A stretch of 64,000 nucleotides of DNA from Balneolaceae bacterium (GTDB taxonomy: Bacteria; Bacteroidota; Rhodothermia; Balneolales; Balneolaceae): contig JAEPQH010000008.1 of assembly GCA_017640605.1 (NCBI GenBank), positions 62,001-126,000 of the forward strand, read 5' to 3'. The notes below the pieces were generated by a model. It had not been told where the DNA came from, did not search any database, and saw only the letters and a program-made list of their open reading frames with translations. Shown here in pieces: positions 30,030 through 36,833 of the stretch. The first letter of the stretch is position 1. Every line of letters begins with the position of its first letter. The position numbers and the translations under genes were made by a program.

Positions 30030-33000
30030 ATGAGCAGTTCGGGAATAGATCACAGTACTATTGAATCAATCGTTGGTGATTTTCTGTTACACAGCACCCA
30101 CTTTGGATGCCTGGTTGTAGACAGATCTGGCCGGATTGTGTTAGCCAACGACACCTTTTTTTCCATATTCCCGGTTTTAACTAAGGAGCAAACCGGGAAA
30201 CCACTTCATGAAGTAGTGCATGAGCAGGAAAAGGATCGTGTTCAAGAAGCGGTAGAGTATTTATTTGAACATGGCAAACTCTCTCAAACGGAATGGAGAC
30301 TGTTATCACTAAAGGATGAATTTCTGTATGTAGATATTGAAGCGAGTCTCTTTGAATCTAACGGGCAAGAATTTGCATTGGGAATTTTTATTGATCGAAC
30401 TAGTAAGAAAAGCTTAGAAGCCGATATAAAGGAGCAATCTGAATCCCTGCAAAGTGTTAACGAACAGTACGAATTGGCGATTAAAACTGCCCAATTAGGA
30501 ATTTGGGTGTATGATATTCAGGCAGACGAACTCATCTGGAATCCTGAAATCATGAAGATGTATGGGGTTGAAGATGAAAATGCAGCAATTGGCATTGAAG
30601 ATTGGCGGGAATTTATTCACGAAGAAGATCTTAAGGCTACCGACAATGAATTAGCCAAAGCTTATGCCGGTGAGACTGTTTTTAATGTTCGATTTAGAAT
30701 TAATGCAGGCGATGGTACTACGAAGCATATTTCGGCATCGGCGGCACCGGTTTTTAATGCTGATGGCGAAGTAGTAAAAATTCATGGTGTAAACTATGAC
30801 ATCACCGATCTGATTGAAGCCGAATTTGAAATTACCGAACGGGAGCAGTTATTAAGAAATATTACCAATCAGTTTCCTGGTTTTGTAGTACGATCTCAGG
30901 TAGACAAAGATGGAAAGGAAGAGCTACAATACTTAAGCGATGGAATACGTGATATTTTAGGGATTGATCCGGAGCATGCTAAAAGTAACTTCAATGTTCT
31001 ATGGGATAGTGTTTGTGAGGATGATCTGCCTCGGCTTAAAAAAGAAATGGCTGAAGCTATTGAGAAATCGGAATCGCTTACCACAGAAATTTGTGCACTC
31101 AACAATGTAGGCAGGAAACGTTATTTACGGATTTTTGCTACCCCACAGACTGATGAAAATGGCACTATTACATGGGATACTTTAGGAATTGACATCACCG
31201 ATCAAAAAATAAAAGACAGAGCCATTTATGAAAGTCAACGAATGCTCGATCGACTTACAAATCAAGTTCCGGGCATGGTTTATATTTACGAGCTTCTTCC
31301 CGATGGCACCGATCGTTTCGAGTATTTAAGTAAAGGCATTGAATCACTTTTTGGGATTGATAAAAATGAAGCCCTCAAAAATTCCCAATTGATATGGAAT
31401 CAGATTCACCCTGACGATGTACCTAAATTGAGTGATTCTGTTCTGGAATCTGCCAACGAACTGAAACCATGGGTTTCTACATTTAGGATTTTTGATACTG
31501 ATGGTAATGTAAAACACATTCAAGGAACGGGTACACCAACTAAATTGAAAAACGGAACCATTAAGTGGTATTCAATTGGCTTGGATATTTCCGAACAGGT
31601 TAAGCAACAAGAGAAAATTCTTGAGAACAAAAAACACCTTAGTGTCATCTCCGACAATTTCCCTGGCGTGATATATACCTATGTTCGTCACCCCGACGGA
31701 ACGGACGAAATCACCTATTTAAGCAAAGGAATCGAACACATCCATGGTGTTAAAACCGAAGATGCTTTAAACGATATAAGTAAGGTTTGGGAGTTAATGC
31801 ACCCCGATGATGTGGAAGATTTTATGAACTCGATTCTGGAATCCTCAAAAAACAATACGCCTTGGGAAACCCAATTCCGTAGTAGAGTAAAAGACGGTTC
31901 TTACCGATATTTTCAAGGATTTGGGAAGCCCACCGAACTATCGAATGGCTCGGTATTATGGAGTAGTATTTCCTTTGATATTCACGATCAGGTAGTTGCC
32001 CGTATACAATTAAACGAGCAGAAAGAACAACTTCAAAGCATAACTGATCAGATAAGCGGCGTGGTACTAAAATACCAATACTTGCCGGATGGTTCTGATC
32101 GAATAACGTACATCAGTAAGCGGGTTAAGGAATATTGGGGAGTTGAAGCGGAAGAGGTAATCGAAGACATAAATGTTGGATGGGCACGGGTAGTTCCAGA
32201 AGATATTGAGCCGATTCGGGAAAGTATTTATGAATCCGTTCAGGATTTATCCGTATGGAATAATCTGATGCGATTTATTTCAAAAACCGGCGAAATAAAA
32301 TATTTACAAGGGGTTGGAACACCCAAAAAACTTGAGAATGGCATTGTTGAATTCGACGTAGTATTCATCGATATCACCGATGAATATTTAGCAAGAAAAG
32401 ACCTGGAAACGAAACAACACCAACTGGAAGTGATTGGTGAACAGCTACCCGGCGTTGTATTTACCTACTTCAGAAAACCTGATGGAACAGATGGTTTCTC
32501 AAACATTAGTGATGGATTTGAAGAGGTGTATGGGTTCGATAAAGACAAAGCGTTATCAAATCCGCAGCATATTTGGGATCGCATCCACCCAGAAGATTTA
32601 CCAAAATTAATCGATAAGATTATCGAATCAGCTCATAAACTCACAAAGTTTGATATTCAATTCAGAATCATTCATCCTGACGGAACTTTGAAGTATGTAC
32701 ATGGTTTTGCTGCCCCAACCAAAGGAGATAACGAAACCATAATCTGGAATGTGATAAATCTGGATATTACCGACCGCAAACAAGCCGAAACCGAAATCGT
32801 TGAAAAGCAAAATCAATTACAAGGAATAACCAATCAAATTCCAGGTGTGGTGCTACGCTATCAGTTGTATCCCGACCAATCAGAGGAACTACTTTATATT
32901 TCAGATAGAGTAGTAGAAGTATTTGGTGTAACAAAAGAGCAGGCTTACGAAGATATACAAACTATTTGGGATGTAATTGTACCAGAAGATGTAGAATTAG

Positions 33001-34208
33001 TTAAAAAATCTATTGCTGATTCGGCAGAAAATCTAACCAAATGGAATCACGTGTATCGATACAAAACACCAGACGGTTCTATTGGATACTTACAAGGCTT
33101 TGCTACTCCAACTAAACAACCTGACGGCTCTGTAATTTGGGATAGCGTAATTATGGATAGCACCCAACGTGTTATGGCTGAAATGGATGCCGTTAGATCC
33201 AGCGAAAAATTGCGTTCGTTTATTAAAGCATCTCCACTGGCTATCTATCAGATAAATGCGGATGGAATCGTTACTGATTTCTGGAATCCGGCGGCAGAAA
33301 ATATTTTTGGCTGGCTTCGAAAAGACGTGATTGGTAAAGAACTTCCACAAGTAGATATGGAAAATGATTCTGAGTTTGCTTCCATCATTAAATCCATCGA
33401 AAAAGAACACTCGCCGCGACAGCTTATCGTAAAACGAAACAATAAATTTGGCGAAGAACTTACTCTTGAGGTAACCGTAGGACCGTTTTTTAATGAATAT
33501 GGTGAACTAACCGATTTACTAATTATTGCAAACGATATCACCGAGCTGCAAGAATATCGAAAAACCTTAGAGGCAGCATTAAAAGAAAAAGACATTTTGT
33601 TGCAGGAAATTCACCATCGTGTTAAAAATAATCTGGCTATTGTAAGTGGGTTACTGGAACTGCAAGCCATGCGCAACGACACCGATCATGACATTAGCAT
33701 GATTATAGAAGCTCGTAATCGTATCCACTCTATAGCAATGGTGCACGAACAGCTTTATCAGGATATGGATTTCAGCCATATTGATCCGCGCGAATACTAT
33801 CGTAAACTGCTTAAAAAATTACAGGCTAACACAATTTCCGATCCCCGTGATATCGAGTATGATTTAAAATTCGATATCGACCGAATCAACATAAATCGCG
33901 CAGTTCCGCTTGGACTTTTAATTAACGAGCTTTTCACAAATTCCATCAAACATGCATTTAAGGATGGCACCGGTAAACTAACCCTGCATTTTACCCAAAC
34001 CGACGATCGAATCAATGTTTACTACGAGGATGATGGCCCCGGATTTGTGATCGATGAGATTAAACATAAAAACACCATCGGGTGGCAGTTGATCGAAACT
34101 CTACTTGTTCAACTAGATTCGGATTATACGATGGATACGAATGGGCGTTTTATGCTTGATTTTGTGTTTACAGAAGCATTGCATGGCTCGCAGGCACATT
34201 TCCATTAG
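30030..34208 (+). CDS. Multi-PAS HisKA_2 sensor histidine kinase with six 131-residue PAS repeats
   Basis: 1392 residues, no membrane segments. Nine PAS domains: two diverged ones (about 15-125, 140-265), six that repeat with an exact period of 131 residues (the P-G or S-G pair at 283, 414, 545, 676, 807, 938), and one more (1055-1175). Then HisKA_2 with EIHHRVKNNL (H1195/H1196) and a HATPase with PLGLLINELFTNS and DDGPGF. HisKA_2 kinases usually phosphorylate single-domain or output-free receivers. No receiver is encoded next to it; the neighbouring regulator has its own kinase. The repeat domains probably form a long signalling rod; ligands unknown. Confidence 0.92.
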   Translation: MSSSGIDHSTIESIVGDFLLHSTHFGCLVVDRSGRIVLANDTFFSIFPVLTKEQTGKPLHEVVHEQEKDRVQEAVEYLFEHGKLSQTEWRLLSLKDEFLYVDIEASLFESNGQEFALGIFIDRTSKKSLEADIKEQSESLQSVNEQYELAIKTAQLGIWVYDIQADELIWNPEIMKMYGVEDENAAIGIEDWREFIHEEDLKATDNELAKAYAGETVFNVRFRINAGDGTTKHISASAAPVFNADGEVVKIHGVNYDITDLIEAEFEITEREQLLRNITNQFPGFVVRSQVDKDGKEELQYLSDGIRDILGIDPEHAKSNFNVLWDSVCEDDLPRLKKEMAEAIEKSESLTTEICALNNVGRKRYLRIFATPQTDENGTITWDTLGIDITDQKIKDRAIYESQRMLDRLTNQVPGMVYIYELLPDGTDRFEYLSKGIESLFGIDKNEALKNSQLIWNQIHPDDVPKLSDSVLESANELKPWVSTFRIFDTDGNVKHIQGTGTPTKLKNGTIKWYSIGLDISEQVKQQEKILENKKHLSVISDNFPGVIYTYVRHPDGTDEITYLSKGIEHIHGVKTEDALNDISKVWELMHPDDVEDFMNSILESSKNNTPWETQFRSRVKDGSYRYFQGFGKPTELSNGSVLWSSISFDIHDQVVARIQLNEQKEQLQSITDQISGVVLKYQYLPDGSDRITYISKRVKEYWGVEAEEVIEDINVGWARVVPEDIEPIRESIYESVQDLSVWNNLMRFISKTGEIKYLQGVGTPKKLENGIVEFDVVFIDITDEYLARKDLETKQHQLEVIGEQLPGVVFTYFRKPDGTDGFSNISDGFEEVYGFDKDKALSNPQHIWDRIHPEDLPKLIDKIIESAHKLTKFDIQFRIIHPDGTLKYVHGFAAPTKGDNETIIWNVINLDITDRKQAETEIVEKQNQLQGITNQIPGVVLRYQLYPDQSEELLYISDRVVEVFGVTKEQAYEDIQTIWDVIVPEDVELVKKSIADSAENLTKWNHVYRYKTPDGSIGYLQGFATPTKQPDGSVIWDSVIMDSTQRVMAEMDAVRSSEKLRSFIKASPLAIYQINADGIVTDFWNPAAENIFGWLRKDVIGKELPQVDMENDSEFASIIKSIEKEHSPRQLIVKRNNKFGEELTLEVTVGPFFNEYGELTDLLIIANDITELQEYRKTLEAALKEKDILLQEIHHRVKNNLAIVSGLLELQAMRNDTDHDISMIIEARNRIHSIAMVHEQLYQDMDFSHIDPREYYRKLLKKLQANTISDPRDIEYDLKFDIDRININRAVPLGLLINELFTNSIKHAFKDGTGKLTLHFTQTDDRINVYYEDDGPGFVIDEIKHKNTIGWQLIETLLVQLDSDYTMDTNGRFMLDFVFTEALHGSQAHFH

Positions 34209-34213
34209 TGTGC

Positions 34214-34912
34214 CTAATCGCTAACAAATTTATAGCCAAATCCATGTACGGTTACAATATGTTTAGGGAAACGATTATCCGATTCCAGTTTTTGCCGTAA
34301 CCAGGCAATGTGCACATCCACAGTGCGGGTAGAAGGCAAGGCATCATAGCCCCACACTTCGTTCAATAATTGATCACGGCTCAGAATCATATCGGCATGT
34401 TCTACCAAAAATCGTAGTAACTGAAATTCTTTTGCCGATAACATAAGTTCCTCTCCGTTCTTCAAAACCCTCATCCTTTTAAAATCGATTTCAACATCCG
34501 AAAAAGAAAACGTATCGGGTTTTTGGTGAGCTTCGATTGCCTTTCGTTTTCGAAGTTGTACTTCAATTCGAGCCAGTAACTCCATCATATCAAAGGGTTT
34601 CTGCATGTAATCGTCAGCTCCCAGCTTTAAACCCAGTACTTTATCTATTACTTGTCCTTTTGCCGTTAGCATGATGATAGGCGTCTGAACATTCTGCTGC
34701 CTCAAATCTTTACAAATATCCAGTCCATCTTTCTTGGGAAGCATCAAATCCAAAATGATTACATCATAATCTCCATTCAAAGCTTTTTCGAAGCCAAGAG
34801 CTCCATCAGAGGCACTATCAACGGTATATCGCTCTTCGATAAGGCGATCCTGAATAGTCATGATCAACCCTTGTTCATCTTCAACCAGTAAAATTTTTCC
34901 TTTGCTTTCCAT
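34214..34912 (-). CDS. OmpR/PhoB-family response regulator
   Basis: 232 residues: receiver with acid pair E11-D12, phospho-acceptor D55 (IILDLML) and K105 (QKPFD), then a winged helix with DVHIAWLRQKLE and VHGFGYKF. Both halves look intact. It lies 13 bases after the sensor kinase gene (same strand), its evident partner. The divergent PDZ/ABC operon beyond the kinase is a candidate target. Confidence 0.95.
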   Translation of the reverse strand: MESKGKILLVEDEQGLIMTIQDRLIEERYTVDSASDGALGFEKALNGDYDVIILDLMLPKKDGLDICKDLRQQNVQTPIIMLTAKGQVIDKVLGLKLGADDYMQKPFDMMELLARIEVQLRKRKAIEAHQKPDTFSFSDVEIDFKRMRVLKNGEELMLSAKEFQLLRFLVEHADMILSRDQLLNEVWGYDALPSTRTVDVHIAWLRQKLESDNRFPKHIVTVHGFGYKFVSD

Positions 34913-34925
34913 ACGCTGTATTCGG

Positions 34926-36833
34926 CTAACTTACCGGGATAATTAGGGTGAACGTACTTCCAACTCCGGGCGAACTTTTAACGGTTATTGTTCCATTATG
35001 TGCCTTTGCCACCCGTTCTACTAAACTCAGCCCAATGCCATTTCCTTTTATCTGCTCAGAAACAACGTGTTCGGCTCTGTAAAAAGGTTGGAATATTTTT
35101 TTCTGTTCTTCTTCAGAAATACCGATCCCCTCATCTTTGATTTGCATCCGCAACCCCAATTCAGATTTATACGTTACTTCATCAACTCTGAAAATAACCC
35201 GACTTCCGGCATCACTAAATTTAATGGCATTACGAATAAGATTAGTCAATGCTAAAAAAATGGCATCTCTATCTGCCCTGAAAGTTGGCAACTTTGAAAT
35301 GTTTGAATACTGAATTTCAATATTTTTTTGTTCAGCCATAGATTCCATTTCTCTCAAAACATCCTGCATTAAAGGATCGATGGCTACATCTGTAATACTG
35401 TATATTCGTTTACCGGATTGAATACCAGAGAATTCCATAATCTGATCTACCATTTCGCTAAGCCGTTTACTTTCGGCAAGCATTAAGTTGGCATACTCCT
35501 TTTTTCGATCTTCATTTTGAACCACTCCCTCACTAAGGTTTTCAGCAGCAGATCGGATTACAGTGATGGGTGTCCTTAGTTCGTGAGAAACGCCTGCCAC
35601 AAATAACATTTGTTGCTCGGCAAGTTCGCGAGATCGTTGTGCAAATATTAAAATCATACAGCCACTAATCCCTAAAACAAGTAAGATTCCGAAGCTAATA
35701 GTGAGATTTCTGTTTCTGGTTTTGGAAACAAATTCATCTAACGATCCGGCTTTAAATGATAACCATAGTTGCCATGCAGAGGGCGATAAATTCCCAACAA
35801 AAGCAGTAGTTATGCTGGTATCATGAGTACTTGATTCAACATTAAGTGATTGCAGTTGAGTGGTAGCATCTACATCAATATTCGAGTTTAGTTGTTCCTG
35901 CTCTTCTTCCACATTCTCAGAAGATCGCTCTCTTGTAATTATGCGTTCGCTATGCGAGCTGAAAAAACTGAATACCACACTATCCCCTTCCATATCCACA
36001 GGATTCCGGTCGTTCTCTATCATCATCAAGCTGGAGAAGTTTAATCGATCCAGATTTTTAGAAAACTCTGGGTTTTCCTGCGCACCACCTATCGTAACAT
36101 ATCGACTTCCATTTTCAGTATTAACAATCGAAATTTGATATTGATCCTGATAGGAATCACCAAAGTAACGCGAAGCAATATCCGGAATTAGTTCGTTTTG
36201 AATAACCTCATCATTTAAACGAATGAGCACAAAGTCATCCAGTTGATCGATGCTTAAGCGAACCTCTAAATTTTGAGATTGATCACTTCGATTTAACGTA
36301 ACAAAATCCAGCACTTGAACCGGGATTTTCAAAAAGCTTGGATCCCCAAGATCGGGAAGGCTCCGTAATGGTGTACTCCTTTCCTCCTTTACAGAATCAA
36401 CATGATCTTCCAGCCAGGATTGAAGCGATGAGTCTGGGTTTATCTGCTCAAGTGAGTTGGTTTCAGAATTATAGCGGTTGATTTCAGAAACGTTTTCCCG
36501 GTTTTTAATCAAATAAATCTCACTGGTTAATGCATAGGGTTGATTACTCGCATACCACGTATCACTGCTTTCTAATACATTAAGTTCTAGCTCTTCCGCT
36601 GAGTTATCATTATTGGTGACTTGTATTCGAAATGCACGATGCAATCGAGAAAAAGACTCATTGAAATCGCTGATAAAATTCTCGGTGGAAGCCTCAACAC
36701 TTTCTTCTAAGCGTTGGCGTTCGGCATCGCTTACACTGCCAAGCCAGTGATATTGTAGGATGGCAAGTGTCAATAATGCGCCTACCAGCACTACTAAAAA
36801 ACTATATGTAAACCATCGGTTTTGCATGCCCAA
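34926..36833 (-). CDS. Membrane sensor histidine kinase (HisKA), partner of the OmpR-type regulator
   Basis: 635 residues. TM1 about 11-31 and TM2 about 383-403 bracket a 350-residue periplasmic sensor region with no domain I know. The cytoplasmic part has HELRTPI (H417), an N-box NLIRNAIKF, DEGIGI and GNGIGLSLV. All catalytic boxes are present. The ATG at 36833 or 36827 could start it. The kinase is encoded before its regulator, opposite to many operons. Confidence 0.93.
   Translation of the reverse strand: MGMQNRWFTYSFLVVLVGALLTLAILQYHWLGSVSDAERQRLEESVEASTENFISDFNESFSRLHRAFRIQVTNNDNSAEELELNVLESSDTWYASNQPYALTSEIYLIKNRENVSEINRYNSETNSLEQINPDSSLQSWLEDHVDSVKEERSTPLRSLPDLGDPSFLKIPVQVLDFVTLNRSDQSQNLEVRLSIDQLDDFVLIRLNDEVIQNELIPDIASRYFGDSYQDQYQISIVNTENGSRYVTIGGAQENPEFSKNLDRLNFSSLMMIENDRNPVDMEGDSVVFSFFSSHSERIITRERSSENVEEEQEQLNSNIDVDATTQLQSLNVESSTHDTSITTAFVGNLSPSAWQLWLSFKAGSLDEFVSKTRNRNLTISFGILLVLGISGCMILIFAQRSRELAEQQMLFVAGVSHELRTPITVIRSAAENLSEGVVQNEDRKKEYANLMLAESKRLSEMVDQIMEFSGIQSGKRIYSITDVAIDPLMQDVLREMESMAEQKNIEIQYSNISKLPTFRADRDAIFLALTNLIRNAIKFSDAGSRVIFRVDEVTYKSELGLRMQIKDEGIGISEEEQKKIFQPFYRAEHVVSEQIKGNGIGLSLVERVAKAHNGTITVKSSPGVGSTFTLIIPVS

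Follow-up and report, generated by a model that had tools for sequence, protein, structure and literature searches.

Many receptors show regularly spaced tandem PAS domains, and the linker lengths of sensor kinases are discrete owing to coiled-coil periodicity, as reviewed in PMC6798134; the activity of YF1, for one, varies with linker length in steps of seven (PMC6798134). PAS domains, too, can have signalling helices between them (PMC1592074). FixL, whose tandem PAS dimer has been solved (PDB 8js5, 8js6), resembles the kinase described here in that a helical linker connects one PAS domain to the next; FixL differs, however, in its two domains against nine, in the haem bound by one of its PAS domains, and in an identity of only about 16%. 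The LOV-PAS-HK of Brucella abortus (6ph4, 6pps) is a comparable LOV-PAS sensory kinase, but it carries a flavin LOV domain and no array, whereas the LOV motif NCRFLQ, looked for in the sequence when flavin was considered, is absent from our kinase; a blue-light histidine kinase model of NCBIfam is among the weaker matches to the C-terminal half. The heptad linker rule of YF1/YHF (PMC6798134) is shared in its steps of seven, seen here as a 20/27 quantisation, and in the regular tandem PAS arrangement, although those are engineered LOV and haem PAS kinases with measured activity and our quantisation is read from sequences. A similar PAS type is also found in the Tlr1612-family c-di-GMP phosphodiesterase model (NCBIfam NF053781), which matched in seven stretches at 534 bits. 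Membership of that family was rejected, its curated cut-off for the full length being 1600, far above this score; a kinase forms the output here instead, and Pfam detected neither GGDEF nor EAL in it.

The stretch of DNA analysed (the window) comprises 64,000 nucleotides of the Balneolaceae bacterium assembly GCA_017640605.1 (contig JAEPQH010000008.1, positions 62,001 to 126,000), and the kinase gene lies near its middle (Table 1). In Pfam the protein matched HisKA_2 (PF07568) at 80.9 bits against a gathering cut-off of 22.3, HATPase_c at 27.6 bits against 26.4 (residues 1292-1345), and PAS_3 (PF08447) in 7 stretches totalling 339.7 bits against 25.6, with further PAS models at both ends. No likely transmembrane segment was found in it, the maximum 19-residue Kyte-Doolittle mean being 1.07, and there are three Cys residues in the entire protein, a count noted when haem or flavin binding was weighed. 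Judged from these features, it is a soluble-looking, apparently cytoplasmic HisKA_2 sensor histidine kinase, with the PAS string as its predicted input half.

Table 1. Features of the array kinase gene and its surroundings (positions in the window)
Feature	Residues	Position	Strand	Remarks
Sensor histidine kinase ORF	1392 aa	30030..34208	+	Nine PAS + HisKA_2 + HATPase_c
PAS1	about 18-124	30081..30401	+	Pfam PAS/PAS_4
PAS2	about 140-270	30447..30839	+	PAS_3 of another subtype than the units
Unit 1	271-401	30840..31232	+	Most diverged unit; no counterpart unit in the G032 orthologue
Unit 2	402-532	31233..31625	+	Orthologue of G032 unit 1 (55% identity)
Unit 3	533-663	31626..32018	+	Orthologue of G032 unit 2 (69%)
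Unit 4	664-794	32019..32411	+	SG landmark; orthologue of G032 unit 3 (69%; NG there)
Unit 5	795-925	32412..32804	+	Orthologue of G032 unit 4 (63%)
Unit 6	926-1056	32805..33197	+	Orthologue of G032 unit 5 (62%)
PAS9	about 1057-1180	33198..33569	+	PAS_9/S-box type
HisKA_2 dimerisation/phosphoacceptor domain	1193-1265	33606..33824	+	Pfam, E 7e-23; H-box EIHHRVKNN
HATPase_c	about 1292-1380	33903..34169	+	Pfam; N-box NELFTNSIKHAF and G-box DDGPGF read from sequence
OmpR-type response regulator		34214..34912	-	Adjoins the array gene, convergent
HisKA kinase		34926..36833	-	Complete pair with the preceding regulator
Second HisKA_2 kinase	595 aa	50321..52108		Several PAS

The array itself, residues 271-1056, is made up of six PAS_3-type units of 131 residues (393 bp) each, with the landmarks PG, PG, PG, SG, PG and PG at residues 283, 414, 545, 676, 807 and 938, exactly as the original prediction had read them. 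Self-comparison of the protein agrees with this reading: among ungapped diagonals at offsets 50-699, the top five were 131, 262, 393, 524 and 655, and the best local BLOSUM score at offset 131 reached 1181, whereas 300 shuffled sequences gave no score above 56. The units had also been described as clearly diverged and free of insertions and deletions, and both statements hold, with ungapped pairwise identities among the six of 25-44% for protein and 42-56% for DNA. Compensating indels within the units were sought by thirds and by MAFFT and none was found, because every third, compared with the next unit, fitted best at offset 131 (15 of 15 comparisons) and the MAFFT alignment contains zero gaps. 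The phase of the linkers runs on beyond the array, upstream from PAS2 to unit 1 with an offset of 0, and downstream to the PAS9 motif 'SSEKLRSFIKASPLAIY', which begins in phase at residue 1057; the PAS9 core is too diverged from the units for ungapped alignment. The linker between PAS1 and PAS2 spans 35 residues from D122 to G157, against a generic PAS_3 spacing of 28, and fits one heptad extra. Unit 1 is much more diverged than the other units, possibly through relaxed constraint, and several positions that the subfamily conserves, e.g., W80 and G98, are not kept in it.

A high-stringency survey of the family and phylum recovered the array in only one other genome, a member of the same genus (G032), in which the gene has the same neighbours and encodes 1261 residues. 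The genus has a third genome, G033, in which no match was found, but its assembly is only 82% complete, so that this absence is uninformative; a scan of the genome collection with a consensus unit yielded only seven distant loci. The orthologue possesses five units instead of six, and their spacing is again exactly 131; the difference in copy number is one whole unit (393 bp). Units 2-6 of the window pair by position with units 1-5 of the orthologue (identities in Table 1), non-positional pairs between the species being 21-44% identical, and the tree groups each positional pair with a support of 0.985-1.0. This positional pairing places the divergence of the units earlier than the separation of the two species, with no homogenisation from then on. 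In the orthologue, unit 1 is a chimera: as far as about residue 280 it is similar to unit 1 of the window and beyond that to unit 2, the switch point falling inside the conserved ITNQ-PG motif. Such a junction would be the expected trace of recombination between neighbouring units, for a loss in the sister species and a gain in the window alike. Residues 1-270, which hold the two N-terminal PAS domains, are likewise gapless against the orthologue, and the absence of indels is therefore not specific to the array.

The regulator and HisKA kinase that adjoin the array gene (34214-36833) stand beside it in the sister species as well, at 82% and 70% identity. The regulator already has this HisKA kinase as its own partner, which makes it no obvious candidate for pairing with the array kinase. 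The genome contains some two dozen further kinase-like sequences that match the C-terminal half of the array kinase. One of these is the second HisKA_2 kinase of the window, about 16 kb downstream, which shares 38% identity with the C-terminal portion.

The original prediction had taken the constant period as a sign of selection on length, and its value can be judged against the same domain elsewhere. A profile built from eleven units (six of the window and five of the orthologue) was run over the ORFs of all fetched relatives, where it found 51 full-length matches in other proteins, which were 29-48% identical to the profile consensus and nearly always the only domain of this subtype in a PAS protein of otherwise different composition. 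No insertion or deletion was present in 39 of these, and the remainder differed in length by -1 to +3 residues; this proportion has to be read with the sample in mind, as a 131-column consensus query and the fetching of best-scoring loci favour indel-free relatives, and matches below 80 bits vary more in length (net zero in 11 of 35). Insertions are tolerated in the outside copies, e.g., after columns 27, 60 and 105. The linker behaves similarly: every unit is preceded by a linker of 27 residues, counted from the DIT motif one domain upstream to the glycine of PG, and outside the array the same distance is 27 in 27 of 36 cases, 20 in seven, and 19 and 31 in one each, so that 34 of the 36 have either 27 residues or exactly one heptad fewer. 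Where two domains of the subtype are neighbours in relatives, the spacing was 131, 131, 131 and 132, and 130 in a Rhodoferax contig (L025). The same PAS subtype also appears in very long open frames of 2715, 2360 and 2296 residues (relatives L070, L065 and L058, respectively).

The period of 131 can thus be understood as the usual core of the subtype plus a standard S-box linker, because 39 of 51 cores and 27 of 36 linkers elsewhere have the identical length, and selection on length specific to the array would not be needed. Of the proposed selection, the array-specific part falls away, with 76% of outside domains and 75% of outside linkers equally long, while general coiled-coil phasing stands. 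A rough joint chance for six standard cores and five standard linkers, treating the units as independent, is about 0.05 (0.76^6 x 0.75^5), and a modest extra length constraint within the array could still be present, though nothing requires one. That the array was selected as a rigid rod, or as a spacer whose length is fixed, beyond the normal length conservation of PAS domains, would agree with the zero indels over six window units and five orthologue units and with the insertions that the loops of the same domain accept elsewhere; yet the orthologue is one whole unit shorter, so that total length is not conserved, and single domains outside arrays are equally constant in 76%, which makes this idea highly unlikely in our estimation. 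A related proposal sees in the array a tunable rod, in which the number of units (six here, five in the sister species) sets the set-point, reach or cooperativity of the kinase and adaptation proceeds through recombination of whole units, since only whole-unit changes keep the helical phase; we hold it to be decidedly improbable.

Repeated homogenisation, offered in the original prediction as the other cause of equal lengths, was given up. The whole-unit change and the chimeric junction in the congeneric species do indicate that recombination between units occurs, and gene conversion or unequal crossing over, recent or recurrent, could equalise units in this way; but units within one protein are 25-44% alike against 55-69% for positional orthologues, each unit has a counterpart among the PAS domains of other kinases that resembles it about as much as its best-matching sibling does, and the positional orthology between species rules the process out, leaving it hardly any credence. 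Somewhat easier to entertain, although still unlikely, is a history in which the units were gathered from different kinases of the same subtype rather than duplicated within the gene, their length being simply common to the subtype. In the tree the array does not form a clade, units 4 and 6 lie near single domains of other kinases, and the best identities outside (32-45%) match the best inside (31-45%); on the other hand, the node supports are low (0.07-0.86), and adjacency together with the common subtype makes internal duplication the simpler course. As far as sequences speak to their origin, the units may have arisen by ancient internal duplication or by assembly from several sources, both being possible.

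The explanation that we consider highly probable as a whole is that of a HisKA_2 kinase with a string of PAS domains, whose period is the usual core plus a heptad-phased linker. The core, in which the PG landmark and the DIT motif lie about 105 residues apart, would be set by the fold; the linker, covering the 26-27 residues between DIT and the following PG, would be the standard S-box linker, predicted as an unbroken helix, and its length would be held by the phase of the coiled-coil, with relatives at 27 or one heptad less. Support for stacked PAS units with continuous linker helices, as originally envisaged, comes from the structure that AlphaFold predicts for units 5-6 (mean pLDDT 93.3), a monomer model whose pTM of 0.69 leaves the orientation of the domains less certain than each domain. 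In this model the linker helices span positions 2-23, 132-152 and 263-285, and one continuous helix of 21 residues, or three heptads, joins the two domains. The 3-4 hydrophobic pattern is clean in the linker, at columns 125, 129, 136, 139 and 143 (numbering past 131 belongs to the next unit), and among solved structures the two-unit model comes closest to the tandem PAS dimers of FixL (E about 1e-13, target-normalised TM 0.72-0.76). The 20/27 steps, the hydrophobic pattern and the predicted helix together point to coiled-coil linkers between the units. By recombination between units, whole units of 393 bp would be gained or lost with frame and phase preserved. The kinase would probably function as a parallel dimer, and changes that a ligand or the redox state brings about in single PAS domains may travel down its stacked helices to HisKA_2.

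Any constraint on length would come under the coiled-coil phasing that PAS kinases are already known to follow in general; the design is known, multi-PAS HisKA_2 kinases with heptad-phased linkers being no new kind of system, and the example is largely ordinary. The informative detail is the whole-unit change in copy number between sister species. The array thereby offers a natural illustration of PAS units and linkers as length-quantised modules that are added or removed whole with their register intact, and the pair of five- and six-unit orthologues provides a convenient system for studying how long PAS stacks pass signals.
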